Source of the DNA: Sulfuricurvum sp.
GTDB lineage: Bacteria; Campylobacterota; Campylobacteria; Campylobacterales; Sulfurimonadaceae
Assembly (NCBI RefSeq): GCF_028712165.1
Contig: NZ_JAQTQR010000027.1
Location: 1 to 34,033 of the forward strand
DNA: 34,033 nt
Reading direction: 5' to 3'
Shown here: piece by piece, positions 9,669-28,571 of the stretch
Layout of the letters: each line of letters opens with the position of its first letter
Position numbering within the stretch: position 1 is the first letter of the stretch
The notes under the pieces: generated by a model
Database searches by the model: none
What the model saw: the letters and a program-made list of their open reading frames with translations, nothing else
What the model was told of the DNA's origin: nothing
Made by a program: the position numbers and the translations under genes

Positions 9669-9699
9669 TCATTGTGATGTATTTGTGATTTAAGCAGAG

Positions 9700-9705
9700 T
9701 ATAAT
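9700..9705 (+). promoter_or_regulatory. -10 box (TATAAT) for the soluble chemoreceptor gene
   Basis: Perfect TATAAT 28 bases before the ATG at 9734, preceded by TTTGTGATTTAAGC, an AT-rich stretch without a clear -35, as is usual for Campylobacterota. It separates the chemoreceptor from the upstream operon. Confidence 0.6.
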
Positions 9706-9733
9706 TTTCTTACATCAGTAAGAAGGGGTTCTC

Positions 9734-10828
9734 ATGGGTTGGTTTGGAGATGATACAGCTTTAAAAAATGAGTTGGAAAGTGTCAAAAAAGAAAATAATA
9801 CACTCCAAGAAGAGAACAAACGTCTAGAAACACGCCTCCGCGAACAAGATATCCTCCTTCAGCAACAGGCTGATCAAAGCAAATGTGATAACGCATCGCT
9901 CATGATGACTTATCAAAATGAACAGATCAAGAAAAATTTGATCGATGTTCAGGGAAATATGGCCTCATCCGTCGTATCCTCAAAAGAAAACATTGCACAA
10001 TCCACCGCATTACTGGAAAATATTGTCGATCTCGGACATAAAGCATCGGGTATTTCGAATACATTAGAAGGTCTAAACGGCTTGGCACTTGAGTCAATGG
10101 AAACGGTTCATGCATTATCGGAACGTGCGCAGGATGTGGCAAGCATCTTAGTCTTGATTAAAGATATATCCGATCAAACGAACTTGCTTGCCCTTAACGC
10201 TGCGATTGAAGCGGCTCGGGCAGGAGAACACGGACGAGGATTTGCCGTTGTTGCAGACGAAGTACGCAAACTCGCAGATCGAACGGATAAGGCAATCAGC
10301 GAAATCAATATTTCATTACAGTCAATGAAACAGGATGTTACAACGATTGGGGAAAAATTTGAGCAAGTACAAGAGAGCATTGAGGAATCGAATCAATCTA
10401 TCGGAAGCTTCAATACAAATATGGAACATAATGCGCAGATGATGCGTAAAACGTTTGCCAGTACGGAACATACGGCGGAACGGATATTTATGAGTCTGGC
10501 AAAATTGGATCATATTGTTTGGAAAGTGAATACCTACCTTTCAGCCATCACCCGAAAAGAGCAGTTTAGTTTTGTTGACCATCATAACTGCCGTCTCGGT
10601 AAATGGTATTACGAAGGTGAAGGGGCTGAGTTTTTCAAAAAAACCGCAAGTTATTCGGCACTTGAATCACCGCATTCGATTGTTCATAACTCAACTCACA
10701 AAATTTTTGATTTGATGAAGACTGAGAGCATCGGTTCAGAACGTTTTGTCAAAGTTTTTGAAGAGATGGAACATGCAAGTGACGGTGTATTCGCAACTTT
10801 GGATCGTATGCTTCAAGAAAAAATCTAA
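9734..10828 (+). CDS. Soluble methyl-accepting chemotaxis protein with CZB domain (TlpD-like)
   Basis: A 364-aa cytoplasmic chemoreceptor. There is no transmembrane segment or HAMP domain; residues 5-50 form a coiled coil. The conserved signalling tip that contacts CheA/CheW runs from about 145 ([20 protein letters not shown] ... [15 protein letters not shown]). The C-terminal chemoreceptor zinc-binding (CZB) domain has its four expected ligands: H260, C286 (in NCRLGKWY), H314 and H318. The architecture matches Helicobacter pylori TlpD, a soluble receptor linked to energy and oxidant taxis; CZB Cys-Zn sites are known to react with oxidants such as HOCl. It sits directly upstream of the complex I promoter, which suits an energy-sensing role, but that link is inference. 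It has its own promoter. Confidence 0.93.
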
Positions 10829-11143: not shown

Positions 11144-11533
11144 ATGGAGCATTACCACGTAGCAAATCCTTATTTTGGGGTATTTGTACTGTTTGTATTG
11201 ACGTTTGGGGCATTCTATACCACAACAGTCATCGCACGCTTAGCCAGCCGCGCATTAGCGGCCAAAGATACTGAAAAAATAAAACTCTCGGTCTACGAAT
11301 GCGGACCGGAGGTGACCAAACAGCCGAACCGTATTTCGACACAGTTTTACCTGTTTGCGTTGTTGTTTTTATTGTTTGATGTGGAAATTGTATTTATGTT
11401 TCCGTGGGCAATTGATTTTAAATTACTCGGATGGTTCGGCTTTAGCGAGATGATGATGTTTATCGTCTTGTTGGCTATCGGATTTGTTTATGCGTGGAAA
11501 AAAGGGGCACTCGAATGGCACAACATCAAGTAA
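11144..11533 (+). CDS. nuoA: Complex I subunit NuoA
   Basis: A 129-aa inner-membrane subunit of proton-pumping NADH-type:quinone oxidoreductase. Three hydrophobic segments are seen (about 10-32, 67-88, 95-115), the normal topology. The conserved loop YECGPEV between the first and second helices, with its Cys, faces the quinone cavity, and [12 protein letters not shown] carries the conserved acidic residues. Length is normal. It is the first gene of the operon, 90 bases below the -10 box, and its 3' end overlaps nuoB by 19 bases. Confidence 0.97.
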
Positions 11534-12024
11534 ATTATCTTAAAGACGGCGGACTTCCCGTCGCATTGACAACAATCGATAAAGTGGTCAACTGGGGTCG
11601 ATCAAACTCTATCTGGGCATTGACATACGGTTTGGCATGCTGTGGTATTGAAATGATGGCTTCAGGGGCATCCCGTTATGACTTTGACCGTTTCGGTACG
11701 ATCTTCCGGGCTTCTCCGCGTCAGGCTGAACTCATGGTTGTTGCAGGGACATTGACGAAAAAACATGCGGAGTTTATTCGCCGTTTGTACGATCAAATGA
11801 CAGAACCTAAATGGGTTATCTCTATGGGTTCATGCGCTAACACAGGCGGTATGTTCAATACTTACGCTACGGTTCAAGGTGTCGATCGTGTTATCCCTGT
11901 TGATCTCTATCTACCGGGATGTGCACCACGTCCTGAAACCTTGCAATATGGCGTATTGCTGTTACAGCAAAAAATTCGTAAAGAGAGTGCGTCACGCGCT
12001 CAAAAACCAAAAAGGTTGATGTAA
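11515..12024 (+). CDS. nuoB: Complex I subunit NuoB (N2 cluster)
   Basis: A 169-aa peripheral subunit that holds the terminal [4Fe-4S] cluster N2, from which electrons pass to quinone. All four ligands are present: the tandem C42-C43 in [10 protein letters not shown]107 in [10 protein letters not shown] and C136 in PGCAPRPE. I chose the ATG at 11515 over one at 11494 in the same frame because it gives the normal family N terminus and has AAGGGG at the right distance inside the end of nuoA. The stop TAA shares a base with the ATG of nuoC. Confidence 0.97.
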
Positions 12025-12830
12025 TGAGAGCTTACACCCCTAAAGACGACGTACAGAAAAAACCCTATTATACAGATCGCTATTGGGTTGCCCCTCAGGT
12101 AGCGAAGAGCGATGTGAGCGAAGATGCGGTATTTGCTGCGGATCTCGAAGCGATCAAAGCAAAATTTGACGTATTGGATGCGTATATCCAAGTGGGTCAA
12201 ATGGTGGTCGTCATCAATGCTGTGGACAACTTTGGTGTAATTGAACTGATGAAAAATGAGCTTTCATACAATCAGCTCTCTGAAATGTCTGCGATTGATT
12301 GGTTGGCTACGGAAGGAAAATTTGAGATTTTCTACCAAATGCTCAGTATGTCTAAGCGCAAACGTATTCGCGTAAAATGCAAAATCGGTGAAAAAGAGTC
12401 GATCCAAAGCGTTGAGAAACTGTTTCGATCTGCTGACTGGTCTGAGCGCGAGATGTATGACATGTTCGGTGTCGTTGTGAATAACCACCCGTTTATGAAA
12501 CGTATTTTGATGCCGGATGACTGGGAAGGCTTCCCGCTTCGTAAAACCTATCCTCTCCAAGGGGATGAATTTGCGCAGTGGTATGAAGTCGATAAAATCT
12601 TCGGTAAAGAGGCGCGTGAGATTATCGGACCTGAAAACCGCGATCCTGCACGTGTTGATCGCTATGACACCGAACGTTTTGCAAGATTGGGTCACGAAGT
12701 ACCGCGCGGTGCCGATATCAGCCAAGGCGAGCCGGATACTCCGCTTGTTTACCAAGAAGAGGGTGGTGTCTTCTTGATCGAAAAATTTGACGCAGAGAAG
12801 AGTGTCGTGATCTCTGATCGCGACCGTTAA
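12024..12830 (+). CDS. nuoC: Complex I subunit NuoC
   Basis: A 268-aa peripheral subunit that scaffolds the quinone module together with NuoD. The core 30-kDa signature [20 protein letters not shown] and the following [15 protein letters not shown] are clear at about 130-180. It carries no cofactor. An N-terminal extension of about 40 residues and a C-terminal tail of about 60 residues after the core make it longer than the E. coli NuoC domain. NuoC and NuoD are separate genes here, unlike the fused NuoCD of E. coli. It starts on the last base of nuoB and ends 9 bases before nuoD. Confidence 0.95.
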
Positions 12831-12839
12831 GGATCACGT

Positions 12840-14066
12840 ATGCAACAAGCCAATAGACTTAGACCTTTTTTCGAAAACATTACATTTGACCGTGATGACA
12901 ATGAGTTGATTCTCAACTTCGGTCCTCAGCATCCATCGGCGCACGGACAATTACGTTTGATGCTCCATTTGCAACAAGAGCAAATCACAAAAGCCCATCC
13001 GGATATCGGATACCTTCACCGTGGTATGGAGAAGATGGCAGAGAACATGATTTACAATGAATTCATGCCGACCACTGACCGTATGGACTATATTGCATCC
13101 AGTTCAAACAACTACGGATTTGCTTTGGCAGTTGAAAAACTGATCGGTCTTGAAGTACCGCGCCGTGCGAAAGTAATTCGTATGATGCTTCTTGAGACCA
13201 ACCGTCTTATGTCCCACCTTTTTTGGTTGGCGACAACGGCGCTGGATATCGGAGCGATGACCGTGTTCTTGTTTGCATTCCGTGAGCGTGAATATCTCAT
13301 GGATTTGATCGAAGACTACTGCGGTGCCCGTTTGACCCATGCAGCGGTTCGTATCGGTGGAGTTCCCCTCGATTTGCCGGATAACTTTATCGCCGATCTT
13401 CGCAAATTCCTCGACAAATTGCCGGAGAATATCAAAGACTACGAAGACCTCCTCGACAGCAACCGTATTTGGTTGATGCGTATGGAAAATGTCGGAGTTA
13501 TCTCAAAAGAGATGGCCTTGAGCTGGGGATGTTCGGGAGTAATGCTCCGTGCTTCAGGTGTTGAGTGGGATATCCGTAAAGAAGAACCGTATGAGCTTTA
13601 TGATGAAGTAGAGTTCAATGTTCCGGTTTCGGACAAAGGGGACAACTACGCCCGTTATAAACTCTACATGGCAGAGATGCGCGAATCGGCAAAGATTTTG
13701 GATCAAGTTCTCGATATGTACGAGGGAACCGGGCCTGAGTTAATGGCGCATGCACCGCAATATATTTCGGCACCTAAAATCGATATTATGACTCAAAACT
13801 ACTCGTTGATGCAGCATTTTGTCCTTGTAACTCAAGGGATGCGTCCTCCGGTAGGAGAAGTATATATCGCGACCGAATCACCAAAAGGGGAGCTTGGTTA
13901 TTACATCAACTCCCAAGGTGGTGCTTATCCGTACCGTCTTAAACTCCGTGCGCCGTCATTCTGGCACACCGGGATTTTGACAGATTTATTGCCGGGTCAC
14001 TACATTCCGGACGTTGTATCTATCATCGGGACGACCAATATCGTCTTCGGTGAAGTAGACCGCTAA
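12840..14066 (+). CDS. nuoD: Complex I subunit NuoD
   Basis: A 408-aa peripheral subunit of the 49-kDa family that forms the quinone headgroup site next to cluster N2. The N-terminal [15 protein letters not shown] carries the conserved HPSAHG loop, and [12 protein letters not shown] and [11 protein letters not shown] follow; the C terminus ends GEVDR as in the family. Like other complex I members, it lacks the Ni-binding Cys pairs of its hydrogenase relatives. Length is normal. A short Shine-Dalgarno lies in the 9-base gap behind nuoC. Confidence 0.97.
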
Positions 14067-14078
14067 AAGGAGCATGCA

Positions 14079-14303
14079 GTGAAACGTTACGATTTACGTC
14101 ATTTAAAAGAAAATTTTTACGGTCGCATGTCTGATATTATCAAACAAGAGCCTGCAAACGGCGAAGTACTGATCTTTTTGTTTGAAATTGGTGATTTTAC
14201 CCCGATCCAACAATCGGCTGATTTGGTTAAAGAGCTTGGGTGTGAACTCATGAATTCGTTGAAGTTTAACGAAGCCGACTGGACCATTGTGGTCAAAAAA
14301 TAA
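14079..14303 (+). CDS. Small NuoE-position protein (Campylobacterota NuoE substitute)
   Basis: A 74-aa protein in the place where other bacteria have the 160-170-aa NuoE. It contains a single Cys (residue 55, ELGCELMN), so it cannot hold the [2Fe-2S] cluster N1a, which needs four. Size and position match the small replacement proteins known from Campylobacter jejuni (Cj1575c) and Helicobacter pylori (HP1264). The fold may resemble a reduced thioredoxin-like domain: a helix, a strand EVLIFLFEIG, a helix and a strand DWTIVVKK. The start is GTG at 14079 behind AAAAGGAG; the nearby ATG at 14074 is out of frame. It probably binds the following fusion protein. Function beyond that is unknown. Confidence 0.85.
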   Translation: MKRYDLRHLKENFYGRMSDIIKQEPANGEVLIFLFEIGDFTPIQQSADLVKELGCELMNSLKFNEADWTIVVKK

Positions 14304-14312
14304 GGAAACGTT

Positions 14313-16349
14313 GTGAGTAAAGTCTATTTCTCCACGTGGCGGGGCGAGCAAATTAACAACATCGGCAAAGCTGACGATGCTTGGGAAAAATCTGCTTATA
14401 ACCTCCCGTTGGAATATAACGAACACGCCCATTCAAAAGCGTTTATCGGTTGGGATGGCGTAGCGCTGTTTAACCCCGATGTTGACGTGGTTCGTTTAGC
14501 GACGGAGTATGCAGCGCAATATCAGGTTTATTCTGAAGCATGCGGACGTTGTGCACCGGGGCGATGGGGCGGTCGTATTTTGTACGATTTGCTCGATAAA
14601 ATCGCTCGCGGAGAGGGTGCGGTATCGGACATGGATCACCTAAAAGAGGTCTCCAAAACGATGCAGGAAACGTCTAAATGCGAGATTGGTAAAACCGTTC
14701 CAAACCCGTTATTGGATCTCATGACTCACTTCGAGTCGGAGTTTATGGCGTGTATTACCGAGCAAAAACCTTCCAAACATTATCATATGGAAGATACCAA
14801 TTACATCGCAAAAATTACCGCACCCTGTATGGATGCGTGTCCGGCACACGTCGATATTCCGGCCTATATCGAAGGTGTGAGAGATCTGCGTTTTGATGAT
14901 TCATTGATGGCAACCCGTCAAACCATGCCATTGGCACATACGTGCGGACGTGTTTGTCCTCACCCGTGTGAAACAGAGTGCCGCCGTACAAACCTTGATG
15001 AACCTATTTCGATCATGGAGCTCAAACGTTTGGGTGCCGATTATGAGACCGATCACGGTTTCGGCTTCTTCCACCCAAGTGAGAAAAAACCGTCCATCGG
15101 TAAAAAAGTGGCGGTAATAGGTGCCGGTCCTGCAGGGCTAACGGGTGCCTATTATCTGGCACTTGACGGTGTTGACGTTGATGTGTACGAAGAACTTCCG
15201 GTTCTCGGCGGCGAGGTAGCCGTCGGGGTTCCGGAGTACCGCATGCCTATTGATAAATATAACCAAGACATCGAAGCAGTACGTGATCTTGGCGTTAATT
15301 TTATCACGAATAGCAAAGTCAATGCAGATATGATGCGTCAGTTTGAAAATGACTATGATGCTGTTTTGGTAGCAACCGGAACCCGTATCTCTAAAAAAGT
15401 CTATTGTGATAATGAACGTCCTGAAATTCAGGGATACTGGGGAGCTATCGACTTTTTGGATAAAGTTAATCTCCAAGTCAAATACGACATCATGGTACCG
15501 GAAGCGGATCAAAAACGTCATATGTTACCGACAAATTTCGTTGATTTGACGGGTAAAACACTGGTATGTGTCGGGGGCGGATTTACCTCTATGGACGTTG
15601 TACGCTGTGCGATCCGTGCCAATGCAAAAAAGGTTGTTATGCTTTATCGCCGTGACGAAGCAACGATTATCAAAAACACGACGTATGAAGAGTATCACGA
15701 AGCGGTAGAAGAGGGTGTCGAATTTATTTTCCACTCTGCCGTTGCAAAGATGAACGATGAAAACGATGTTTTGAAATCATTGATTGTCGATCGCTATGAA
15801 CTGGTTCCGGATCCGAACGGGGGGCGTCCTCAGTTGGAAAAAATCGAAGGAGCTTCGTTTGAGATGGAGTGTGATTATCTCATTCCTGCCGTTTCTCAAA
15901 GTGCTGATTTGAAACTTATTCCCGAAGAGTGGGAAATCGAGCGTACCTCATGGGCTACGATCAAAACCAACGGGAAAGACTATATGACTTCCCGCAAAGG
16001 GATTTTTGCTGCCGGAGACTGTGAATACGGACCGATGACGATTGTTAATGCGGTCGGACAGGCAAAACGTGCCGCATCGGTTATGGCACGTTATGTCCAG
16101 AGCGGCGAAATTACCTTGTTAGATGATGAGATCATGGAAGATCATCTTCGTAAGCTCAAGGTTTACGACAAAAAAGAGAAAATCCAAGGGTGGCTTCCGG
16201 GATTGCCGCGTCAACACAGTGAAGTCTTGACACCGGATGAACGCAAAGACAATAACCGTGAAGTCAAATACGGATTTACGCAAGAAGAGGCGCTTGCTGA
16301 AGCAGAACGATGTATGCGCTGTTATTATATTGCGATGGTAGCACACTAA
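14313..16349 (+). CDS. NuoF-position fusion: N3-like domain + GltD-like FAD/NAD(P)H oxidoreductase
   Basis: A 678-aa protein in the nuoF slot. Residues 1-150 resemble only the C-terminal cluster-N3 region of NuoF: EACGRCAPGRWGG gives C77 and C80, C123 follows, but the third expected Cys is G83. The FMN/NADH-binding domain of NuoF is absent. Residues 165-678 look like glutamate synthase small subunit (GltD) and relatives: Fe-S motifs C172-x3-C176 and C211, C215, C219, C223 (GRVCPHPCETEC); FAD site GAGPAG at 270-275; a second nucleotide site GGGFTS at 421-426 with R446-R447 (YRRDE), a pattern associated with NADPH; FAD motif AAGDCEYGP; and terminal C667/C670. No glutamate synthase large subunit is nearby. 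Inference: an alternative NAD(P)H- or ferredoxin-linked electron entry for complex I. Start GTG at 14313. Confidence 0.88.
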   Translation: MSKVYFSTWRGEQINNIGKADDAWEKSAYNLPLEYNEHAHSKAFIGWDGVALFNPDVDVVRLATEYAAQYQVYSEACGRCAPGRWGGRILYDLLDKIARGEGAVSDMDHLKEVSKTMQETSKCEIGKTVPNPLLDLMTHFESEFMACITEQKPSKHYHMEDTNYIAKITAPCMDACPAHVDIPAYIEGVRDLRFDDSLMATRQTMPLAHTCGRVCPHPCETECRRTNLDEPISIMELKRLGADYETDHGFGFFHPSEKKPSIGKKVAVIGAGPAGLTGAYYLALDGVDVDVYEELPVLGGEVAVGVPEYRMPIDKYNQDIEAVRDLGVNFITNSKVNADMMRQFENDYDAVLVATGTRISKKVYCDNERPEIQGYWGAIDFLDKVNLQVKYDIMVPEADQKRHMLPTNFVDLTGKTLVCVGGGFTSMDVVRCAIRANAKKVVMLYRRDEATIIKNTTYEEYHEAVEEGVEFIFHSAVAKMNDENDVLKSLIVDRYELVPDPNGGRPQLEKIEGASFEMECDYLIPAVSQSADLKLIPEEWEIERTSWATIKTNGKDYMTSRKGIFAAGDCEYGPMTIVNAVGQAKRAASVMARYVQSGEITLLDDEIMEDHLRKLKVYDKKEKIQGWLPGLPRQHSEVLTPDERKDNNREVKYGFTQEEALAEAERCMRCYYIAMVAH

Positions 16350-16359
16350 GGAGGGATGG

Positions 16360-18612
16360 ATGATCAATTTTACGATTAACGGCCAGCCCGTCATAGCAAA
16401 TAAAGGGGAGACTATTCTCCAAGCAGCACGTAAAGCGGGATTCTATATCCCAACGATGTGTTATTTAGAGAAAACAACTCCGTGTGCCTCATGCCGATTG
16501 TGTGTCGTTGAAACGGATAAAACCGATGGATTGATTCTTAGTTGCCAAACTCCACCGACGGAAGGATTGGGTGTAACGATTAATTCAGAACGCCTTGAGC
16601 AAGAACGAACCAATATCATGCGTCTGTATGATGTCAATCACCCTTTAGAGTGCGGTGTATGTGATAAATCCGGGGCATGTGATCTTCAAAATAAAACATT
16701 AGAGTTCGGTGTTTCGGCACAACATTTCAGTGCCAAAGATCAACATCGTGCGATTGAGCACTGGGGAATGATCAATTATGATCCCGCTTTGTGTATCTTG
16801 TGCGAGAAATGTGTTCATGTCTGTAATGAAATTATCGGCGATGATGCGATTACACTCCAGTTTGGAGGATATAAATCGGCAGTGATCCCGAAAAACAGTG
16901 AAGTTCTTGATTGTACGTTCTGTGGTGAGTGTATTGCGGTATGTCCGGTCGGTGCGCTGGTAAGTTCTGATTTTCAGTACACGGCAAATGCATGGGAACT
17001 GAGTCAAATCCCGGCAACCTGTGTTCATTGCTCAGCTGGATGTTCGCTTACCTATGAAGTGAAACATACTTCGACAACGAATGCAAACGATCGTATTTAT
17101 CGTGTAACCAATAATTTTGAACACATGACTCTATGCGGAGCAGGACGTTTCGGGTTTGATTTTGATCAGCAAAGCGAAAAAAATGAGGCAGAATTTACCA
17201 AAGCTGTTGAAGCAATTCGAAATGCCTCTGCTATCCGTTTCAGCGCATTGATTACAAATGAAGAAGCGATGATCCTTCAGCAATTCAAAAAAATGCTAGG
17301 GATCAAACTTTATAACGAAGAGGCAAGAGCGTATCAAAGTTTCATGGCCGCATATGCATCCGTTAGCGGAAAAATGGGATTCGGCGGAAGTCTGGATGCG
17401 ATTAAACAAAGTGACGGAATCATTGTAGTCGGAGGGCGTATCACTACCGATAATCCGGTTGTCCGTTACGCAATGACAAGCGCTGCGCGTCATAACGGGG
17501 CAAAAGTGGTTTACATGCATCCTCTTGAAGATACATTGCTTCAAAATGTTGTGACACAATTTGTCAAATACGAAGTAGGAACGGAAGAGGGCGTTATCGC
17601 GATGCTGGCATCAACCCTTCTGCAGGATGCCGATATCAATGACGAGATGCGCAAATTCTTCGCGGATCTTGATGAGGGCTATCTTTGTGCCGAGAGTAAT
17701 GTCGGAGATGAAGAATTCATCCGTATCGCAAAATCGATGGGCAGAGCAAAACGAAAAACCCTTATTATCGGCAGCGATGTATTAAATCATAAACGCGCAG
17801 CTAATATTGCCCGTTTGTGTGCAATGATCGAAACCTATACCGAGTTTTCCGTTGTTGTCGTAGCCCCGAGTGTCAATACTATCGGAGTCTCGTTGATTTG
17901 TGATCTTGATGCCGATAACGGCGGCGATGGAGTTGTAGGTTATAATGCAGCAGGTGAGTATACGATGGGTTCCATCGGTGACGTGATGCTCAAACTCCCT
18001 TCTCTCAATTCACAAGAGGGGACGTTTGTAAGTATCAATCACCAAGTGCTTCCGACAAATGTTGCGGTAGCGTTTTACGGCTATACATTAAATGATCTTG
18101 CAAATGCGCTGGGGTTAAAATCAGCGAATACTATTGATTACACGGCACAACTTCCGGTTGCAAAAGGGTTTAACGGGTCGTCTTTTGATGATTTAGGGAA
18201 TTTTTACGGACCGCTTGGAGAAGATGATCGAGGATATATTTTAGAAAATATCGATGTTGAAATCGGTGGTTCTCTCGAAGAAATTGAAGATTTACCGGAG
18301 TTTAACGGCACTGTTGTCTATCGTTGTAATCCTGTAAATCAATTTAACGCGTACACAGCGCGAACGTCACAGCTCGAAAAAGAGGCAACTTTATCCGGTT
18401 CTGCCCAATTCGCGGCTGCTGCAAAAATCACCGATGGTGATAAAATTCAAATTGTATTTGCAGGTGAGATGCAAGAGAGAATTTTCAAATTGGATGCATC
18501 ACTGAAGGGTACCATTGCTTTGGTACCGGCATACGATGTCGCATACGGTGCGATGAATGAAAAATATCGTTTTGAAAAGGTGAAAATTATGAGGATGGGG
18601 AATGAATCATGA
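16360..18612 (+). CDS. nuoG: Complex I subunit NuoG, first copy
   Basis: A 750-aa iron-sulfur subunit of the NuoG/molybdopterin oxidoreductase family. Cluster ligands in order: [2Fe-2S] N1b C34, C45, C48, C62; His-ligated N5 H94, C98, C101, C107; two complete ferredoxin-type motifs C145/148/151/155 and C185/188/191/195; N7 C221, C224, C228, C259. Canonical NuoG has one cluster (N4) in place of the two ferredoxin motifs, so this form resembles the N-terminal part of FeFe-hydrogenase and formate dehydrogenase. The C-terminal 480 residues are the degenerate molybdopterin-type domain. A strong Shine-Dalgarno (GGAGGGATGG) precedes the ATG. It shares ATGA with the second nuoG, so the pair should be made in equal amounts. 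Confidence 0.93.
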   Translation: MINFTINGQPVIANKGETILQAARKAGFYIPTMCYLEKTTPCASCRLCVVETDKTDGLILSCQTPPTEGLGVTINSERLEQERTNIMRLYDVNHPLECGVCDKSGACDLQNKTLEFGVSAQHFSAKDQHRAIEHWGMINYDPALCILCEKCVHVCNEIIGDDAITLQFGGYKSAVIPKNSEVLDCTFCGECIAVCPVGALVSSDFQYTANAWELSQIPATCVHCSAGCSLTYEVKHTSTTNANDRIYRVTNNFEHMTLCGAGRFGFDFDQQSEKNEAEFTKAVEAIRNASAIRFSALITNEEAMILQQFKKMLGIKLYNEEARAYQSFMAAYASVSGKMGFGGSLDAIKQSDGIIVVGGRITTDNPVVRYAMTSAARHNGAKVVYMHPLEDTLLQNVVTQFVKYEVGTEEGVIAMLASTLLQDADINDEMRKFFADLDEGYLCAESNVGDEEFIRIAKSMGRAKRKTLIIGSDVLNHKRAANIARLCAMIETYTEFSVVVVAPSVNTIGVSLICDLDADNGGDGVVGYNAAGEYTMGSIGDVMLKLPSLNSQEGTFVSINHQVLPTNVAVAFYGYTLNDLANALGLKSANTIDYTAQLPVAKGFNGSSFDDLGNFYGPLGEDDRGYILENIDVEIGGSLEEIEDLPEFNGTVVYRCNPVNQFNAYTARTSQLEKEATLSGSAQFAAAAKITDGDKIQIVFAGEMQERIFKLDASLKGTIALVPAYDVAYGAMNEKYRFEKVKIMRMGNES

Positions 18613-21095
18613 ATGAAATCACGATTACCATAGACGGCCGCACTGTCCAGACGCAAGAGGGTGAATATATTCTTAATGCGGCGCGTGCTAATGGGATTTT
18701 TATTCCGGCGATTTGTTATTTAACACGATGTTCACCGACATTGGCGTGTCGTATTTGTTTGGTTGAAGCGGATGGCAAGCAAGTCTACGCGTGTAATGCC
18801 AAAGCAAAGCAAGGGATGGAAATTACGACTACAACTCCGAATATCGAATCTGAACGCCGTGCGATTATGGAAGTTTATGATGTCAACCATCCGCTTGAGT
18901 GCGGAGTGTGCGATCAATCAGGTGAATGTGAGCTGCAGAACTATACTCTTGAGATGGGTGTAGATCAACAAACCTATGCGATCAAAGACACTCATAAACC
19001 GGCACAGGATTGGGGATTGATCCATTACGATCCGGCATTGTGCATTATGTGTGAACGTTGTATTACCGTTTGTAAAGACATGATCGGAGATGCGGCACTC
19101 TCTACCGTTGCGCGGGGATCCGATCCAATCGAAGCGGCATTCAAAGAATCAATGCCAAAAGATGCCTATGCGATGTGGAATAAGCTCAATAAATCGCTTA
19201 TTTCTCCGAATGCGGGTGATACGTTAGATTGTACTAACTGCGGAGAATGTACGTCGGTATGTCCGGTCGGTGCGTTGGTAAGCAGTGATTACCAATACAC
19301 ATCCAATGCATGGGAACATAAACAAATCCCGGCAACGTGCGCCCATTGTTCGGCAGGATGTCAGCTGAGCTATGATATCAAACACACCTCTGTTGAAAAT
19401 CCTGAGAGCAAAATCTACCGCGTTAAAAACGAGTGGAACTATGTATCGCTTTGCGGTGCCGGTCGCTACGGATACGATTTCGAAAATAAAAATGTAACAA
19501 AAGATGCTGTAGCCTTTGATGCTGCGATTGCAGCATTCAAGCAAGCCGACACGATTGCATTTACATCAACCATTACGAACGAAGAGGCATTGATTCTTCA
19601 GCGTCTTAAAGAAAAATTCGGATACCGCCTTATTAATGAAGAAGCCCGTGCGTTTAAATCATTCCTTAACGCTTACAGTGCTGTGAGCGGTACGTCACTT
19701 TACGGCGGTGATTTGGGTGAAGTTCATGCATCTGATTTTGTTGTCTCTATCGGAAGTGCACTTAAAACCGATAATCCAAATGCCCGTTTTGCGATGAATA
19801 ATGCGTTATCGATGAATAAAGGTGCAGGTCTTTATTTCCATCCGATCAATGATCCGGTTATTGCCGGTATGTCAAAAAGTGTGACGCAGTTCAATCACGC
19901 ACCGATGATGGAAGAAGCGGCTCTTTATTTGATACTGGACCTTTTCGCAGATAAAGCGGCAATGCCTTCTTCCGTGAGCGAATATTTGGCAGGTTTCCAT
20001 TCGACGAAGACCGTAACGGTTGAAGAGACGGTTGATGAAAAAGTGACCGAAACCGTTGTCAAAAAAGTTCTCAACGAAGAGACCGGTGTGGAAGAAGAGG
20101 TAAGCGAAGAGGTTACCAAAACAGTGAAGAAAAAAGTTTCAAAAGAGGTGGAAGTAGATGAAAATGCTCTTTTCGCCCTTTTGAATGCTCCGGCAGGATT
20201 TAGCGATACATTGACTAAATATTTGGCGAAAAAAGAGCGTTTCTCATTGATGGTCGGACCGGATTTATATACACACCCTAATGCATCAAATTGTGCTCGC
20301 TTGGTAGCTTTGATCGAAAAATATACGCAGTTCAGCGTCACAATGATTCCAAACCTTTCCAATACACTCGGGGTTGCCATGATTTGTGATCTTGATTCTG
20401 AGCGCGGAAGTTATACGATCGGATATAACACGGCTGGAAACTTTACACTCAGTGCACTTGGCGGCGGAGATTTGGATATGCCTGCGTTGAATCAGCAAGA
20501 GGGGACATTGACCAATATCGATAAACGGGTTAACCCGACGAATGCGGCACTTTCATTTAGCGGATATGTTTTGAATGATATTGCAAATGCGTTGGGTCTA
20601 AGCTCTAAATACACGGTTGATTACACGGCACAGCTTCCTAAACAGGCAGGATTTAAAGCAACCTGTTTTGATGCGCTTCCTAACCACTACACCAACTCAG
20701 GTGAAGAGGTTCGAGGTTATCGTTTGGACATCCAAACGGTAACGGTAGACACAGATGAAAACGTAACGCCATTTGATGCGGATAAAGCAATTAACGAGAA
20801 TGTTGTTTATTTGGCCAATCCGGTTTTACAGTTTTCACCGTTTACGGCAGCTTCCCATCAACTTCAAGAAAATGGGGGTCTTTATGTCTCTAAAACGTTC
20901 ATGGAATCTAACAGTTGGAATGAAGGGGATCGCGTGAATGTGAAAACGGCACGCGGCGAGCTAAGTCTCAACGTTATAGCCGACGGTAAAATCGAGGGAG
21001 ATATTGCGTATCTTCCGACATTTGATACCGCTATCAACTCTGAAGCACTGTTTGACGGTTACCGTTTTGCGTGCGTATCAATTCAAAAGGTGTAA
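18609..21095 (+). CDS. nuoG: Complex I subunit NuoG, second copy
   Basis: An 828-aa paralogue of the gene before it, with the same complete cofactor set: N1b C36, C47, C50, C62; N5 H94, C98, C101, C107; ferredoxin motifs C145/148/151/155 and C208/211/214/218; N7 C244, C247, C251, C282. It differs by a 23-residue insert between the two ferredoxin motifs and by a Glu/Lys/Val/Thr-rich block at about 467-519 inside the molybdopterin-like domain. Its length is nearer to the single NuoG of Campylobacter and Helicobacter (about 820-840 aa from memory), so it may be the ortholog and the first copy the addition. The conserved N-terminal 290 residues versus divergent remainder suggest an old duplication with specialised roles. 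Confidence 0.92.
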   Translation: MNEITITIDGRTVQTQEGEYILNAARANGIFIPAICYLTRCSPTLACRICLVEADGKQVYACNAKAKQGMEITTTTPNIESERRAIMEVYDVNHPLECGVCDQSGECELQNYTLEMGVDQQTYAIKDTHKPAQDWGLIHYDPALCIMCERCITVCKDMIGDAALSTVARGSDPIEAAFKESMPKDAYAMWNKLNKSLISPNAGDTLDCTNCGECTSVCPVGALVSSDYQYTSNAWEHKQIPATCAHCSAGCQLSYDIKHTSVENPESKIYRVKNEWNYVSLCGAGRYGYDFENKNVTKDAVAFDAAIAAFKQADTIAFTSTITNEEALILQRLKEKFGYRLINEEARAFKSFLNAYSAVSGTSLYGGDLGEVHASDFVVSIGSALKTDNPNARFAMNNALSMNKGAGLYFHPINDPVIAGMSKSVTQFNHAPMMEEAALYLILDLFADKAAMPSSVSEYLAGFHSTKTVTVEETVDEKVTETVVKKVLNEETGVEEEVSEEVTKTVKKKVSKEVEVDENALFALLNAPAGFSDTLTKYLAKKERFSLMVGPDLYTHPNASNCARLVALIEKYTQFSVTMIPNLSNTLGVAMICDLDSERGSYTIGYNTAGNFTLSALGGGDLDMPALNQQEGTLTNIDKRVNPTNAALSFSGYVLNDIANALGLSSKYTVDYTAQLPKQAGFKATCFDALPNHYTNSGEEVRGYRLDIQTVTVDTDENVTPFDADKAINENVVYLANPVLQFSPFTAASHQLQENGGLYVSKTFMESNSWNEGDRVNVKTARGELSLNVIADGKIEGDIAYLPTFDTAINSEALFDGYRFACVSIQKV

Positions 21096-21097
21096 GC

Positions 21098-22087
21098 ATG
21101 GATGTAGCATTTATCATAGAAACGATTGCTAAAATCGTTGTAATCTTGTTGATCTTTTCAGCGCTCGCGGGTCTTGGGACCTACTTCGAGCGTAAAGTGC
21201 TGGCGTTTATGCAACGCCGTTTGGGACCGATGCATGTCGGACCATTTGGATTGCTTCAAGTCGCAGCGGACGGGATTAAACTCTTTACGAAAGAGGATAT
21301 TATCCCTCAAAACGTCGTAAAACCGATTTTTAAAATCGCTCCGGTTATTACGGCTGCGACTGCGTTTATGGCTTCAGCAGCCATTCCGTTTTGGCCGCAG
21401 TTTACTGTAATGGGCTATACCGTTCATCCGATCGTAGCAGACATCAATGTCGGTATCCTCTATGTTCTTGGGGTTATGGCAATCGGATTGTACGGACCGC
21501 TCCTTGGGGGGATGGCATCGGCAAATAAATGGTCATTGATCTCTGCGGCACGTAGTGCGGCTATCTTTATCTCGTATGAAGTTATTACTGGACTTGCGTT
21601 GTTGGCACCGTTAATGATGGTAGGTTCATTGTCATTGGTAGATATCAACAATTACCAAGCCGGCGGAATTACCAACTGGATCGTTTGGTCACAGCCGGTA
21701 GCATTTGTCCTTTTTTGGATTGCCGCTTTTGCAGAAACCGGGCGTACCCCTTTCCACCTTGTTGCAAACGATCATGAAATTATTGACGGTTTCGGAACCG
21801 AGTATTCGGGTATGCGTTGGGGTCTTTTCTTCATCGGTGAATATGCAAATATGTTCTTTATCTCGTTTGTAATCGCTATTGTATTCTTGGGCGGTTTTGG
21901 TGACGGTACTTTTGCGGGAGCATTCCAATTGATCCTCAAAGTAGCGTTTTTCTTTTTCTTTTTCCTTTGGACACGTGCCGCATGGCCGGATGTTCGACCT
22001 GACCAATTGATGTGGTTATGTTGGAAAGTTTTAATGCCGATTGCGGTGCTCAACGTTGTTGTCACCGGCATCGTGATGATGTTCTAA
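21098..22087 (+). CDS. nuoH: Complex I subunit NuoH
   Basis: A 329-aa membrane subunit with eight predicted helices that links the quinone cavity to the pumping arm. Conserved segments include ERKVLAFMQRRLGP, GLLQVAADGIKLFTKED and FGTEYSGMRWGLFFIGEYAN. The cytoplasmic loop usually read as PFDLPEAE-type is here PFHLVANDHEIID (219-230), so two acidic positions of the E. coli loop are His and Ala while E227, D230 and E235 remain. The ATG at 21098 is preferred over a GTG at 21071 in the same frame, which would overlap nuoG and add a polar tail. A (TTTTTC)3 tract at 21947-21964 encodes a run of six Phe in the last helices. Confidence 0.96.
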   Translation: MDVAFIIETIAKIVVILLIFSALAGLGTYFERKVLAFMQRRLGPMHVGPFGLLQVAADGIKLFTKEDIIPQNVVKPIFKIAPVITAATAFMASAAIPFWPQFTVMGYTVHPIVADINVGILYVLGVMAIGLYGPLLGGMASANKWSLISAARSAAIFISYEVITGLALLAPLMMVGSLSLVDINNYQAGGITNWIVWSQPVAFVLFWIAAFAETGRTPFHLVANDHEIIDGFGTEYSGMRWGLFFIGEYANMFFISFVIAIVFLGGFGDGTFAGAFQLILKVAFFFFFFLWTRAAWPDVRPDQLMWLCWKVLMPIAVLNVVVTGIVMMF

Positions 22088-22099
22088 GGAGGTTGTGCG

Positions 22100-22723
22100 A
22101 TGCATCATGAAGAAGTATTTACAGACCGAAATGTAAGTGAACATAGCGCTTATTATTACGTCGATATCGAAAACTATCCGGTAACCGGATGGGATAAATT
22201 TAAGCAAGTTGTCAAACGTGCCGCAAAAGGCGAATTGTTTGTGGGCTTATGGGTTGTTATGCGAGAGATGATCAAATTTGACATCCATACCGTCCAATAC
22301 CCGAAAGAAAAACTTCCGATCGGGCCTCGTTATCGTGCGGTTCATAAACTGCTCCGTTTGTGGGAGTCAGGGTATGAGCGTTGTATCGGTTGTGGATTGT
22401 GCGAAAAAATTTGTATCTCCGATTGTATCCGTATGGATACTCGTATCGACGAGAACAGCCGCAAAGAAGTAACGGAGTACAGCATCAACCTCGGACGTTG
22501 TATCTTCTGCGGATATTGTGCGGAAGTGTGCCCGGAACTCGCTATTGTCCACGGAGGACGTTACGAAAACGGTTCTGAACAACGTGCCCATTTTGTTATT
22601 AAAGACGATATGCTCACTCCGCTTGATTTGCTTACGGCAGGTGAACAATCAGAGTACCCGGGCTTCGGAGCCATCATCCCAGGAAGCGACGCGTCGGTCA
22701 AAAAGACCCCGCTCGCCTATTAA
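22100..22723 (+). CDS. nuoI: Complex I subunit NuoI (N6a/N6b)
   Basis: A 207-aa peripheral subunit carrying two [4Fe-4S] clusters that pass electrons from NuoG to N2 in NuoB. Ligands are C95, C98, C101, C105 (CIGCGLCEKIC) and C134, C137, C140, C144 (CIFCGYCAEVCPE). The first motif lacks the usual Pro after its fourth Cys. An amphipathic helix around 45-65 would lie on the membrane surface. Length is somewhat above the E. coli protein (180 aa) because of an N-terminal extension of about 30 residues. Shine-Dalgarno AAGGAGG precedes the ATG. Confidence 0.97.
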   Translation: MHHEEVFTDRNVSEHSAYYYVDIENYPVTGWDKFKQVVKRAAKGELFVGLWVVMREMIKFDIHTVQYPKEKLPIGPRYRAVHKLLRLWESGYERCIGCGLCEKICISDCIRMDTRIDENSRKEVTEYSINLGRCIFCGYCAEVCPELAIVHGGRYENGSEQRAHFVIKDDMLTPLDLLTAGEQSEYPGFGAIIPGSDASVKKTPLAY

Positions 22724-22735
22724 GGAGTCAAAGTT

Positions 22736-23314
22736 ATGTTTGAAGCTATCGCTTTTTATCTGTTTGCTGTCCTCACAATCGTGATGTTTACCATCACGGT
22801 TATGACCAGTCAAGCATTGTATGCCATCACCGCAATGGCGGCTGGGATGATTTTCATCTCGGCATTTTTCTTTATTCTTGGTGCCGACTTTTTGGGAGCT
22901 ATCCAAATCATCGTCTATACCGGAGCAGTTATGGCGCTTTATGCGTTCGGTATGATGTTCTTCGACACGACTCGTAATGTAGTTGAAAAGAAAGTCAATC
23001 CGCAAATCGTTTTTGTACTGGGCGTATTGGCAGCGGTCATGGTAGTTGCTATTTTTGTTGCACCGATCATCTCAGACAATATCCAAGCGTTGTATCCGAT
23101 TGATCCGACTATCGGTAATTCACAGGCAGTGGGTATGGTTCTCTTTACTAAATATCTGGTCCCTTTCGAACTTGCAGCAGTCATGCTTCTTGTCGCGATG
23201 ATCGGCGGGATTATTATGGCAGGTAAGAAAATGGATAAATCGTTGACCTTGATGGCGGAAGAAGAGATCGGCATGATGGATGACAGCTATAGAGCAGAAG
23301 AAGGGGGACACTGA
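22736..23314 (+). CDS. nuoJ: Complex I subunit NuoJ
   Basis: A 192-aa membrane subunit with five hydrophobic helices. The third-helix motif with the pi-bulge region, QIIVYTGAVMALYAFGMMF, is clear at about 59-77 and belongs to the hinge that couples quinone reduction to pumping. The C-terminal tail is acidic. AAGGAG lies before the ATG. It overlaps nuoK by one base (TGATG). Confidence 0.95.
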   Translation: MFEAIAFYLFAVLTIVMFTITVMTSQALYAITAMAAGMIFISAFFFILGADFLGAIQIIVYTGAVMALYAFGMMFFDTTRNVVEKKVNPQIVFVLGVLAAVMVVAIFVAPIISDNIQALYPIDPTIGNSQAVGMVLFTKYLVPFELAAVMLLVAMIGGIIMAGKKMDKSLTLMAEEEIGMMDDSYRAEEGGH

Positions 23315-23619
23315 TGGAAATTACACTCACCCATTATCTTGTATTGTCAAGCATTTTGTTTGCAATCGGATTGATCGGTATCATGCGACGTAAAAATCTT
23401 TTAATGCTCTTTTTTGCAACAGAAATTTTACTGAATGCTACCAATATCGGATTTGCGGCAATTTCGCATTATATCGGCGATTTGAGCGGTCAAATGTTTG
23501 CATTCTTTATTATTGCAATTGCGGCTTCTGAAGTGGCAATCGGATTGGGTCTTCTCATCGTTTGGTATAAACGTACCGGTAAGATCGACCTAGATCAGAT
23601 GAATTCAATGCGAGGATAG
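23314..23619 (+). CDS. nuoK: Complex I subunit NuoK
   Basis: A 101-aa antiporter-like membrane subunit with three helices. Both functionally important membrane glutamates are present: one in FFATEILLNATNIGF and one in AASEVAIGLGLLIVWY. Length is exactly that of the family. It starts on the last base of nuoJ and nuoL follows after three bases. Confidence 0.97.
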   Translation: MEITLTHYLVLSSILFAIGLIGIMRRKNLLMLFFATEILLNATNIGFAAISHYIGDLSGQMFAFFIIAIAASEVAIGLGLLIVWYKRTGKIDLDQMNSMRG

Positions 23620-23622
23620 GCT

Positions 23623-25509
23623 ATGGAACTTTATTTATATATTGCACTCTTCGCTCCGTTGGTAGGGTCATTATTTTCAGCGTTGTTCGGTATGTCGCCT
23701 AAAACGAACATTACAGGTTATATCGCTTCCGGATTGCTGTTCACCTCTTTTTTAAGCAGTCTCGTTCTGCTCAACTATGTTTTGGGTGGACACACGGTAC
23801 ACGTAGAACTGATGACATGGATGGCAACGGGTGATCTTTACATACCGTTTGGATTTGTCGTCGATCAAGTAAGCGTTGTGATGATGATGGTTGTAACGAT
23901 CGTTTCTACAGTTGTTCACGTTTATTCTGTCGGGTACATGGATCATGACAAAGGATTTAACCGTTTCTTCTCATGGCTTTCGGCTTTCGTTTTCTCGATG
24001 ATGGTTTTGGTTATGAGTGACAACTTCGCCGGATTATTTATCGGATGGGAAGGGGTCGGTTTGTGTTCATGGGGTCTAATCGGTTTCTGGTATCACAAAG
24101 AATCGGCTACATGGGCAGCTAACGAAGCGTTCATTATGAACCGTATTGCCGACCTTGGGATGTTGATCGGTATCTTCATGATTTACTGGAATGTCGGATC
24201 TCTCCAATATGATGTGGTATTTGCAGAAATCGGAAATCTTCCGTTAGTGATTACAACATGGATCGGTATTTTCCTCTTTATAGGTGCAATGGGTAAATCG
24301 GCGCAATTTCCGCTACATACATGGCTTGCCGATGCGATGGAAGGTCCAACTCCGGTTTCGGCACTGATCCATGCGGCTACGATGGTTACTGCGGGGGTTT
24401 ATTTGGTCGTAAGGGCGAATCCGATTTATGATTTGATCCCGAATGTCGGTATTTTTATCGCGAGCCTTGGTGCATTTGTTGCTCTTTTCGCAGCATCTAT
24501 GGCATTGGTTAACCGCGATATGAAACGTATCATCGCCTACTCAACCCTTTCACAACTCGGATATATGTTCGTAGCAGCCGGTTTGGGCGCATACTGGGTA
24601 GCATTATTCCATCTTATGGCACACGCATTTTTCAAAGCGTTGCTGTTCCTCGGTGCCGGTAACGTTATGCATGCGATGCATGATGAACTCGATCCGTTTA
24701 AAATGGGGGGCTTGCGCAAAGTGATGAAAGGGACATTTATCATGATGACCCTTGCTTCCGTTGCCTTAGCGGGTATCTATCCGTTTGCCGGATTCTTTTC
24801 AAAAGATTTGATTTTAGAAGTCGGGTTTGTTGAACACCACTATATTATCTATACCGTATTGTTGTTGACTGCCGGTTTGACAGCGTTTTACTCGTTCCGT
24901 CTTGTGGCATTGATCTTCCATGGAGAAGAGCGCTATAAACTTTTCGGGATTCACCCGCATGAAGCGTATAAGTTTATGTTGGTGGCTATGTCTCCATTGC
25001 TCGTATTGGCGATTATTGCCGGTTCATTTAAAATGACGTACTATCAATTGGTCACTAACCTGCTTCCATCAACGGTATATCATGTGCATAATGAAGTGAC
25101 TTTCTGGATCATGACGATCGGAACACAACTGTTTGTTATTTCAGCTATTTTGTTTGCGTATAAAAAATACAGCAACTGGAACAGTGTTCCGGACGGCACC
25201 TCTAAAATGGAAAATAGTTTCGGCTACAAATTGCTGTGGAATCAGTATTACATACCGAAATTTTATGAAGAAGTTTTTTCCAAACCGTATTTGGAACTTT
25301 CCAAAATTGCGTGGAAACAGATTGATCTTAAAATTGTCGATGCGACCGTAGATATGATTGCTAATGCAATTTACAAAACGGGTGAAAATACACGTGATAT
25401 TCAAAACGGAAATCTCTCCACTATGCTTCGTTGGATGGTTTTCGGTTTGGTTGTTTTATTAGCACTTGCCGTTGCGTTTACCGTTGGGTATAACGCGGTC
25501 AGCGCTTAA
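23623..25509 (+). CDS. nuoL: Complex I subunit NuoL
   Basis: A 628-aa antiporter-like proton-channel subunit at the far end of the membrane arm, with about 16 predicted helices including the long lateral helix and last anchor helix at the C terminus. Typical motifs are GWEGVGLCSWGLIGFWY (membrane Glu), GKSAQFPLHTWLADAMEGPT with its channel Lys, and ALIHAATMVTAGVYL. Length is near the E. coli protein (613 aa). The loop before the lateral helix (about 470-560) is the least conserved part. Confidence 0.97.
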   Translation: MELYLYIALFAPLVGSLFSALFGMSPKTNITGYIASGLLFTSFLSSLVLLNYVLGGHTVHVELMTWMATGDLYIPFGFVVDQVSVVMMMVVTIVSTVVHVYSVGYMDHDKGFNRFFSWLSAFVFSMMVLVMSDNFAGLFIGWEGVGLCSWGLIGFWYHKESATWAANEAFIMNRIADLGMLIGIFMIYWNVGSLQYDVVFAEIGNLPLVITTWIGIFLFIGAMGKSAQFPLHTWLADAMEGPTPVSALIHAATMVTAGVYLVVRANPIYDLIPNVGIFIASLGAFVALFAASMALVNRDMKRIIAYSTLSQLGYMFVAAGLGAYWVALFHLMAHAFFKALLFLGAGNVMHAMHDELDPFKMGGLRKVMKGTFIMMTLASVALAGIYPFAGFFSKDLILEVGFVEHHYIIYTVLLLTAGLTAFYSFRLVALIFHGEERYKLFGIHPHEAYKFMLVAMSPLLVLAIIAGSFKMTYYQLVTNLLPSTVYHVHNEVTFWIMTIGTQLFVISAILFAYKKYSNWNSVPDGTSKMENSFGYKLLWNQYYIPKFYEEVFSKPYLELSKIAWKQIDLKIVDATVDMIANAIYKTGENTRDIQNGNLSTMLRWMVFGLVVLLALAVAFTVGYNAVSA

Positions 25510-25515
25510 GGAGTA

Positions 25516-27066
25516 ATGATGATAGATCATATTTTAACACTTTTAATTTTCTTCCCTGCATTGGCTGCAATGCTTGGATTTGTCGTCACAAAAGACAGTA
25601 TGAGAGCGTACGGTATTGCCGTTTCTTTCATCGAATTTGTCCTCTCTTTGTGGCTATGGTACGCGTACGATCCGATGGTTTCGGGGATGCAATTTATGGA
25701 GTCAATGCCATTGATTCCGGCTTTTGGTATTAATTACCTTCTTGGTGTGGACGGTATATCACTCTTTATTATTATTCTATCAACGTTTTTCACGATGATC
25801 GGTATTGCATCATTGACTGAAAAGCGTCACCTTAAGAATTTGATTATTACCTTGTTATTCTTAGAGATGACAATGGTTGGTGTATTTGCCGCGTTGGATG
25901 CAATTGTATTTTACGTGTTTTGGGAACTCTCATTGGTTCCGATGCTTTACATTATCGGTGCATGGGGCGGGCCGTTGCGTATATACGCATCGATCAAGTT
26001 TTTCCTCTATACGTTTACCGGTTCTTTGATTATGCTGGTCGGTATGCTCTTTATGGCGTATTTTTACAATCAGGCAACCGGAATGTGGAGCTTCTCAATC
26101 CTTGAATGGTATCGTCTGATTTTGCCGGAGAATTTCCAGCTTTGGTTATTTGCGGCATTTTTTATCGGATTTGCAATCAAAGTACCGATGTTTCCATTCC
26201 ATACATGGCTTCCGTATGCTCACGGTCAGGCACCAACTATCGGTTCGGTCATCTTGGCAGCAATTTTGCTTAAAATGGGAACGTACGCATTTGTCCGTTT
26301 TTCATTGCCGATGTTTCCGGATGCTTCGGTTTACTTTATGTTCCCGATTGCAATTATTGCCATCATAATGATTATCTATACGGCGATGGTAGCCTATGCG
26401 CAGGAAGATATTAAACAAGTTGTTGCCTACAGCTCGGTTTCTCACATGGGTGTTATTATCCTCGGTACGTTCGCGTTGAACGTTGAAGGGGTGAGCGGAT
26501 CGGTGTTCTTAATGCTGGCGCATGGGGTTGTCTCAGGGGCTCTGTTCTTACTCGTCGGAGTGATTTATGATCGACGTCATACAAAAATGATGTCGGAGTT
26601 CGGTGGAATTGCATCGGTTATGCCTCGCTATGCGACTATTTTCGGAATTATGATGATGGCATCAGTGGGATTACCGCTTACGATTAACTTTGTCGGAGAG
26701 TTTTTGAGTTTGCTCGGTTTTTATAAACAATCTCACATGATTACGCTTACGGCCGGAGTAGCCATTATCGTTGGGGCAATTTATATGCTTTCTGCCTATA
26801 AAAAAATGTTTTTCGGTACTGTAACGAATGAAGCAAACCGAAATTTGAAAGATGTAAACCGCACTGAACTTCTTGGGCTTATCCCATTAGTTATTGTAGC
26901 AATTTGGCTGGGTGTATATCCAAAACCTGTTTTGGGACCGATTAACAACAGTGTCGAGTCGATTATACAGCTTATGCATGACAAAGCTCAAAGTCCTGAG
27001 GCTAAAGAGCGTATCCCTAACCTTTCAGATTCGAGTAAGATCATTTCAATGCAGGAGGCGCACTAA
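25516..27066 (+). CDS. nuoM: Complex I subunit NuoM
   Basis: A 516-aa antiporter-like proton-channel subunit with 14 predicted helices. The membrane Glu lies in [20 protein letters not shown], the channel Lys in [17 protein letters not shown], and [17 protein letters not shown] is conserved. A polar C-terminal tail of about 30 residues extends past the last helix. Two ATG codons stand side by side at the start, 25516 and 25519; either may be used. Shine-Dalgarno AAGGAG precedes them. Its stop overlaps the nuoN ATG by one base. Confidence 0.97.
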
Positions 27067-28571
27067 TGTTAGAGCCGATTCATGTTTCGCTTGCGTCGCT
27101 TAATTTAGCGACGTTAGCCCCGATGCTCATTGCGATTGTCGGTGCGCTGGTTATTTTAGTGATCGATATGGCAAAGGGAGGGCTGCACAAATCGTTGTAC
27201 GTCATGCTCAGTCTTTTGTTTTTGCTTTTGGATTTAGGTTCGTTGATCGATTTTGCAGGCTTGTTTCTTAAAAACGGAACAATCTTAGGTTTCTTTGATG
27301 TCATGCTTATGGATGGTCTAGCCATCTTGGCTCAGATCATTATTGTAGTGGGATCAATGCTCTTTATTCCGTTGGCATTGACTTCAAAACGGTTTCATGA
27401 ATACAACTATCCGGAGTATTTTGCCCTCTTTTTATTCATGATTTCCGGCTTTCAGTTTATGGTTGCAACCGATAATCTGATTTTGATCTTCATCGGATTG
27501 GAAACGGCATCGTTGGCACTTTATACCCTTATCGCATTGCATAACCGTGCTAAATCTTTTGAAGCTGCCGTGAAGTACTTTACGATGGGTGCATTGGCAG
27601 CAGGCTTTTTCGCTTTCGGTTCGATGATTTTTTATGCGATCAGCGGTTCTGTTGAAATCAATCAGATAGCAACCGTATTGGCAGAAGATCATTACAGTAA
27701 TATTGGCTATATTTTGATTGCTGTTACCTTTATGATCGCAGCAATCGGATTTAAAATATCGATGGTACCGTTCCATACCTGGACACCGGACGTTTATGAA
27801 GGTTCATCTGCAGCACTAGCAGGATATATGTCAATCGTTCCTAAAATCGCAGGTTTTGTGGTTGCGATGCGTTTGTTTGAATTTTTGGTTCACAGCGGAG
27901 TAGCATGGCTGCAAGTCATCCTGTATATCGGAGTTGTCATAACGATGACGGCAGCTAACGTATGGGCATTGGTACAAAGTGATGTCAAGCGTATGTTGGC
28001 ATACAGTTCAATCAGCCATGCCGGTTTTGTAATGGCAGCGATTTTGATCGGTACGACCCAAGCCAACACAGGATTGTTTTTGTATTGGGCGCTCTTTAGC
28101 TTTACCAATCTCGGAGCCTTTACGATGTTATGGGTGAATCGACAGAAAAATCTCCTTCCGGGGCAAAGTTCGGATCATCCGTACGAGAAATTCTCCGGTA
28201 TGGTAAAAACAATGCCGATGGGTGCCGTGATGATGGGTCTGTTTATGCTTTCCCTCGCCGGTATCCCTCCGTTTGGTCTGTTCTGGGGTAAATTGTACAT
28301 GATAGGATCTGCCGTCTCAGCAGGTTATACGGGACTGGCTCTTATCATGGCTCTGAACTCGGCGATCGCCGGGTATTACTACTTGAAACTTATTGTATTT
28401 ATGTTTATGAAAGAACCAATGGTCGGATATGAGAAGATGTATTTTATGAATGCCTCTCTTTCGCTGAAAACCATTATCGGTATTGCTGTAGTCGGAACAA
28501 TATTTGCCGTATTTGCAGTCAACCCTTTGTTGAAAGTTATTACTCTATTCGTGTATAATAGCGGCTATTAA
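27066..28571 (+). CDS. nuoN: Complex I subunit NuoN
   Basis: A 501-aa antiporter-like proton-channel subunit with 14 predicted helices. The membrane Glu is in [16 protein letters not shown], the channel Lys in [18 protein letters not shown], and [17 protein letters not shown] matches the family. Length is normal. It is the last nuo gene, starting on the last base of nuoM. The stop is followed at once by a perfect palindrome and then pflA. Confidence 0.97.

Follow-up and report, generated by a model that had tools for sequence, protein, structure and literature searches.

Two NuoG subunits in one complex I operon

Why should a single complex I operon encode two NuoG subunits? The window (the whole stretch of DNA analysed, 34,033 nucleotides) comes from a Sulfuricurvum-like, sulfur-oxidising member of the Campylobacterota whose genome is 99.94% complete and whose nearest relatives found are Sulfuricurvum MAGs (G1 identity up to 86%). 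On the forward strand, one operon runs in the order nuoA, nuoB, nuoC and nuoD (11144..14066), nuoX (14079..14303), a fusion gene (14313..16349), the two nuoG copies, G1 (16360..18612; 750 aa) and G2 (18609..21095; 828 aa), and nuoH to nuoN (21071..28571). NuoX has a GTG start, matches PF16514 (NADH-UOR_E) and carries no conserved cysteine. The products of nuoH, I, J and L were identified by family search; for nuoK, M and N, the assignment uses length and position together with matches in relatives. Directly upstream of nuoA (7932-10828) are genes for an AAA ATPase and for a chemoreceptor with MCP and zinc-binding CZB domains.

The initial annotation had described two complete NuoG subunits in tandem with all the ligands for five clusters each, and both its coordinates and this description were borne out. 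The epsilon-type NuoG model PRK08493 (cut-off of 591 bits) scored 890 bits for G1 and 1193 bits for G2, spanning the full length of the latter, and both proteins matched Pfam Fer2_4, NADH-G_4Fe-4S_3 and Fer4. Alignment placed 20 ligands in each copy, as expected of NuoG for N1b (CCCC), N5 (HCCC), N4 and N7 (CCCC), together with a second ferredoxin-type cluster, here called FdB (CCCC, like N4). For G1 these are C34, 45, 48 and 62 (N1b), H94, C98, 101 and 107 (N5), C145, 148, 151 and 195 (FdA/N4), C155, 185, 188 and 191 (FdB) and C221, 224, 228 and 259 (N7). The Fe-S halves of G1 (16360..17169) and G2 (18609..19493) are 49% identical. Both copies also have the molybdopterin-oxidoreductase-like C-terminal half of NuoG, with a PF00384 match just over its cut-off in G1. 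Since the AF2 models were weak (pLDDT of 59 for G1 and 64 for the fusion), fold-level matches alone were used; the poor G1 model matched complex I NuoG in Foldseek at an E value of about 1e-20. The C-terminal half of G2 contains a Lys/Glu-rich, repeat-like insert of ~60 residues (19960-20160) that is absent from G1.

The two genes overlap by four bases, ATGA, as had been noted. The equal amounts of the two proteins that the initial annotation expected do not follow from this overlap, and in other genomes the G1-G2 junction lies mostly between -14 and +6 bases, -4 being a common value.

The clusters are not equally conserved among relatives. N1b, N4 and N5 of G1 are invariant in 28 of 28 aligned sequences, whereas 5 of these have lost FdB and 4 have lost N7; the core electron wire of G1 has thus been preserved. 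The initial annotation missed that FdB and N7 of G1 are dispensable in some relatives, and it did not recognise G1 as the full-length counterpart of NuoY (see below). N1b, N4 and N5 of G2 are likewise invariant across 47 operons, and FdB is kept in 46 of them, missing in L105. The N7 ligands of G2 are lost in 19 of the 47 (L083-L088, L091-L093, L098, L099, L101, L105, L107, L108, L111, L034, L037 and L040, from families f3, f7, f9, f10 and relatives). FdB of G2 is retained even in operons whose G1 has no clusters, a pattern that would fit an entry or link cluster.

Canonical NADH complex I, as in E. coli and Thermus, shares the membrane arm genes and the NuoG clusters N1b, N4, N5 and N7 with the window. 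It differs in having one NuoG with four clusters, and NuoE plus NuoF with FMN, whereas the window encodes two NuoG with five clusters each and no NuoE/F flavin or N1a domains. FdB, the fifth site lacking in E. coli NuoG, also occurs in Aquifex and in one Rhizobium NuoG. The nearest solved NuoG by sequence, from Aquifex aeolicus (7q5y), has all five cluster sites as in the window, but its solved entry includes a canonical NuoF chain, which the window lacks.

A flavoprotein fusion in the place of NuoE and NuoF

Neither the canonical NuoF flavin domain (FMN/NADH, PF01512) nor the NuoE domain (PF01257) was matched anywhere in the genome. Their donor-side place in the operon is taken by NuoX and the fusion, which is therefore the only flavin port found for complex I. 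The fusion combines the C-terminal N3 domain of NuoF with a GltD-like FAD/NAD(P)H module. Its N3-like domain (14529..14750; PF10589) has three cysteines instead of the four of NuoF N3 (CGRCAPG...KCEIG) in 28 of 28 fusions, the third cysteine of CxxCxxC being replaced by glycine in all of them, and the cluster is possibly labile or differently ligated. The GltD-like part (14817..16103) has the features of a GltD-like NADPH oxidoreductase, namely six cysteines of two predicted 4Fe-4S sites, FAD and NAD(P) folds (PF14691 and PF07992) and a YRRDE motif, whose position at the expected nucleotide site, by analogy with GltD, suggests a preference for NADPH. The two ligands missing from the GltD-type clusters are likely those of a C-terminal CMRC (16311..16322), giving eight invariant cysteines that can hold two predicted 4Fe-4S clusters.

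Among solved structures, the fusion comes closest to subunit A of NfnABC and of Stn, which are electron-bifurcating transhydrogenases (8oh5, 9bov and 9n5u). These enzymes resemble the window in pairing a GltD-like NADPH module with NuoF/NuoG-type Fe-S domains, but they are soluble, distribute their domains differently and have the NuoF flavin domain that is absent here.

The first NuoG copy accompanies the fusion

We surveyed 160 genomes, each at least 90% complete, and compared operons from eleven families. Two architectures were distinguished: type A, nuoX-fusion-G1-G2, as in the window, and type B, nuoX-NuoY-G2, as in Campylobacter and Helicobacter. The fusion was found in 35 of the 160 genomes, all 35 of which have the G1 Fe-S half (in one, G105, the contig stops before G2), and this half was found only in genomes with the fusion. 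Another 27 loci, from separate projects, repeat the gene order of the window, which rules out an assembly artefact as the source of the duplication. Wherever an operon was examined, G1 sat tightly packed between nuoX/fusion on one side and G2 on the other, and it was never seen in the place of G2.

Five fusion-free genomes (G056, G061, G109, G146 and G122) have a second NuoG-like match of 25-29% identity. None of the five matches lies in a G1/G2-type operon, and a canonical NuoF domain is present in each of these genomes. In the two loci inspected (G061 and G122), the second NuoG is followed by nuoH, indicating a separate complex I operon. The second NuoG of four f10 genomes and of G122 (L128-L132) is short, about 480-530 aa, and these genomes encode a canonical NuoF domain at another location.

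NuoY as a remnant of G1

The epsilon-type complex I of Campylobacter jejuni and Helicobacter pylori (nuoA-D, nuoX, nuoY, nuoG-N) resembles that of the window in operon order, in NuoX and in its single NuoG, which is orthologous to G2. It differs in having no NuoF/GltD fusion and in encoding, instead of the intact G1, the cluster-free NuoY (Cj1574c/HP1265 type). According to reviews, NuoY (Cj1574c) and NuoX (Cj1575c) replace NuoE/F, and Cj1574c was reported to hand flavodoxin electrons to complex I (PMC4178425, PMC6682613).

NuoY proteins (231-343 aa) are homologous to two stretches in the C-terminal half of G1, residues 347-530 (17398..17949) and 634-745 (18259..18594), the intervening part being absent from NuoY. 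No match was found anywhere in the Fe-S half of G1, and no alignment column has a cysteine in more than 8 of 19 NuoY, so that none is conserved. HHalign matched the NuoY profile (built without the contig-truncated G1 of L035) to G1 at an E value of 6e-57 versus 5.3e-24 for G2. The G1 profile was matched by all 19 NuoY at E ≤ 5e-18; only 7 of the 19 matched G2 better than 1e-4. No Pfam family was found for the two NuoY tested, and the NCBIfam NuoG C-terminal region matched two of three far below its cut-off. A tree of the C-terminal halves separated NuoY and G1 from G2 with a support of 100; within it, the NuoY of one f7 genome groups with the G1 of its own family, and f2 NuoY with f2 G1. With this short C-terminal alignment, a single origin of NuoY was not rejected (AU test, p 0.125). 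Both the sequence and the locus, between nuoX/fusion and G2, identify NuoY as orthologous to G1. Because the matches are confined to the C-terminal half and the clusters are gone, sequence comparison indicates that NuoY is a cluster-free remnant of G1. BLAST had labelled NuoY as G1, and the candidate reading as a truncated Fe-S half was rejected when alignment placed it at the opposite end.

This explains the origin of the puzzling NuoY of epsilon-type complexes as a NuoG copy stripped of its clusters. Its reported role with flavodoxin should be reread, since an Fe-S-free protein could serve as a docking site for a donor but probably does not carry the electrons itself. Existing annotations probably already show the two nuoG genes side by side; we found no account of the meaning of the tandem or of the relationship between NuoY and G1 in searchable papers, key subscription papers excepted.

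Evolution of the two copies

In a tree of the Fe-S halves, G1 and G2 stand apart from the NuoG of E. coli, Aquifex, Rhizobium and Nonomuraea and from canonical Campylobacterota NuoG (support of 99), although long outgroup branches make the root position less certain than this support suggests. G2 forms one group (support of 100), and G1 one or two, a single G1 group not being rejected (p 0.41). The initial annotation had proposed phylogeny as a check for an early split, and the split of G1 and G2 indeed predates the sampled NuoG-bearing families of the Campylobacterota. These trees indicate that the two are ancient paralogues within the phylum and that G2 is the ordinary NuoG.

A tree built from eight other nuo genes of the operon showed six switches of architecture, at least five of them on well supported branches. 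The fusion and the G1 Fe-S half changed together in five of five independent pairs (sign test on five pairs only, p 0.0625). Repeated reduction of G1 is the simplest reading of these switches; alternatively, the fusion may have been anciently transferred together with G1.

Proposed electron route

We somewhat favour the reading that G1 and G2 belong to one complex I with different jobs, G1 wiring the fusion to G2. Because G1 comes and goes with the fusion and survives elsewhere only as the NuoY stub, an added arm for electron entry is its most likely role, more so than that of a spare copy. The initial annotation had offered both a shared complex with a longer or branched wire and two alternative complexes. 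The former is favoured by the retention of NuoY and by the co-occurrence of the fusion with the G1 Fe-S half. Co-assembly in one particle is suggested by gene content, NuoY retention and operon position. BN-PAGE of C. jejuni complex I counts against co-assembly, as NuoG, NuoD and NuoC were detected and NuoY was not (PMC7717971).

According to this model, G2 would be the standard NuoG, docking on NuoB/C/D/I and feeding quinone, while G1 would use its C-terminal half to dock next to it, together with NuoX, and the Fe-S half of G1 would connect the fusion flavoprotein to G2. Electrons would pass from NAD(P)H through the GltD-like part, first its FAD and then two 4Fe-4S clusters, to the N3-like cluster, and on through G1 (N1b, N4 and N5) to G2, N6a/N6b, N2 and quinone. 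The route, its direction and the NADPH preference are predictions from sequence. The cysteine missing from the N3-like site of every fusion is a point against the model. After loss of the fusion, G1 would become the cluster-free NuoY, and G2 alone would accept electrons from flavodoxin or ferredoxin. What emerges is a candidate complex I with an NADPH-type module where NuoEF would otherwise be and a second NuoG to span the resulting gap. The complex of the window would hold 16 Fe-S clusters (fusion 3, G1 5, G2 5, NuoI 2 and NuoB 1). The complex I of E. coli has 9. We give an even chance to the full picture, namely one complex with two NuoG in series or branched, about 16 clusters, an NADPH-type flavoprotein instead of NuoEF, separate NAD(P)H and ferredoxin ports, and NuoY as the relic of the second NuoG.

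The alternative that survives best, though we judge it unlikely, is a branched complex in which G1 and the fusion would serve NAD(P)H, while ferredoxin or flavodoxin would enter independently at FdB of G2. Both kinds of donor would then meet in the one complex, and confurcation or bifurcation might be involved. This reading is consistent with the different fates of FdB in G2 and G1, with the reported use of flavodoxin/ferredoxin by fusion-free relatives (PMC6682613, PMC4585668) and with the proximity of the GltD part to the bifurcating Nfn/Stn enzymes, but the conservation of FdB can be explained otherwise, for example by its receiving electrons from G1.

We regard it as quite improbable that G1 and G2 compete for one NuoG site in two alternative complexes, one fed by the fusion and one by another donor. 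Each copy is a complete NuoG with a full ligand set, as this reading would have it, but the C-terminal half of G1 is kept beside G2 after the clusters are lost, and a competitor of G2 would not persist as a cluster-free stub next to it. Moreover, G1 never occupies the place of G2 in the operons examined, G2 is one ancient group separate from all G1, and the G1 Fe-S half occurs only with the fusion. A soluble Nfn/Stn-like NAD(P)H:ferredoxin enzyme of fusion and G1, merely co-transcribed with complex I, is equally improbable: Stn and NfnABC are built of the same module types (NuoF N3, NuoG and GltD) and match the fusion best in both structure and sequence, but the parts that would complete such an enzyme, a NuoF flavin domain and NuoE, are absent from the genome, the position of G1 and its tight junctions speak for complex I, and NuoY stays in the operon after the fusion is lost.

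Association with autotrophy

The preferred model, with G1 as an entry arm of one complex I, has its setting in autotrophic sulfur oxidisers, which depend on quinol-driven formation of NAD(P)H. In these autotrophs, which use the reductive TCA cycle and whose electrons enter at the level of quinone, the arm would probably run backwards, with the proton motive force driving the production of NAD(P)H. ATP-citrate lyase (ACL; PF16114), used here as the marker of this cycle, was found in 38 of the 160 genomes, 30 of them with the fusion. Six others, of family f5, have no NuoG, and in the remaining two (G061 and G109) a canonical NuoF occurs along with a second NuoG. A candidate pyridine-nucleotide port, either fusion and G1 (30) or canonical NuoF (2), is thus kept in every one of the 32 ACL-positive genomes that have a NuoG. 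The fusion occurs without ACL in five genomes (G007, G117, G041, G155 and G159), showing that autotrophy is not its strict partner. Given these exceptions and the confounding by shared ancestry, the association supports reverse electron flow but does not prove it.

Three f2 genomes (L096, L097 and L103) carry a divergent fusion and G1 and no ACL. In two of these three fusions, a long linker joins the N3 domain to the GltD part.
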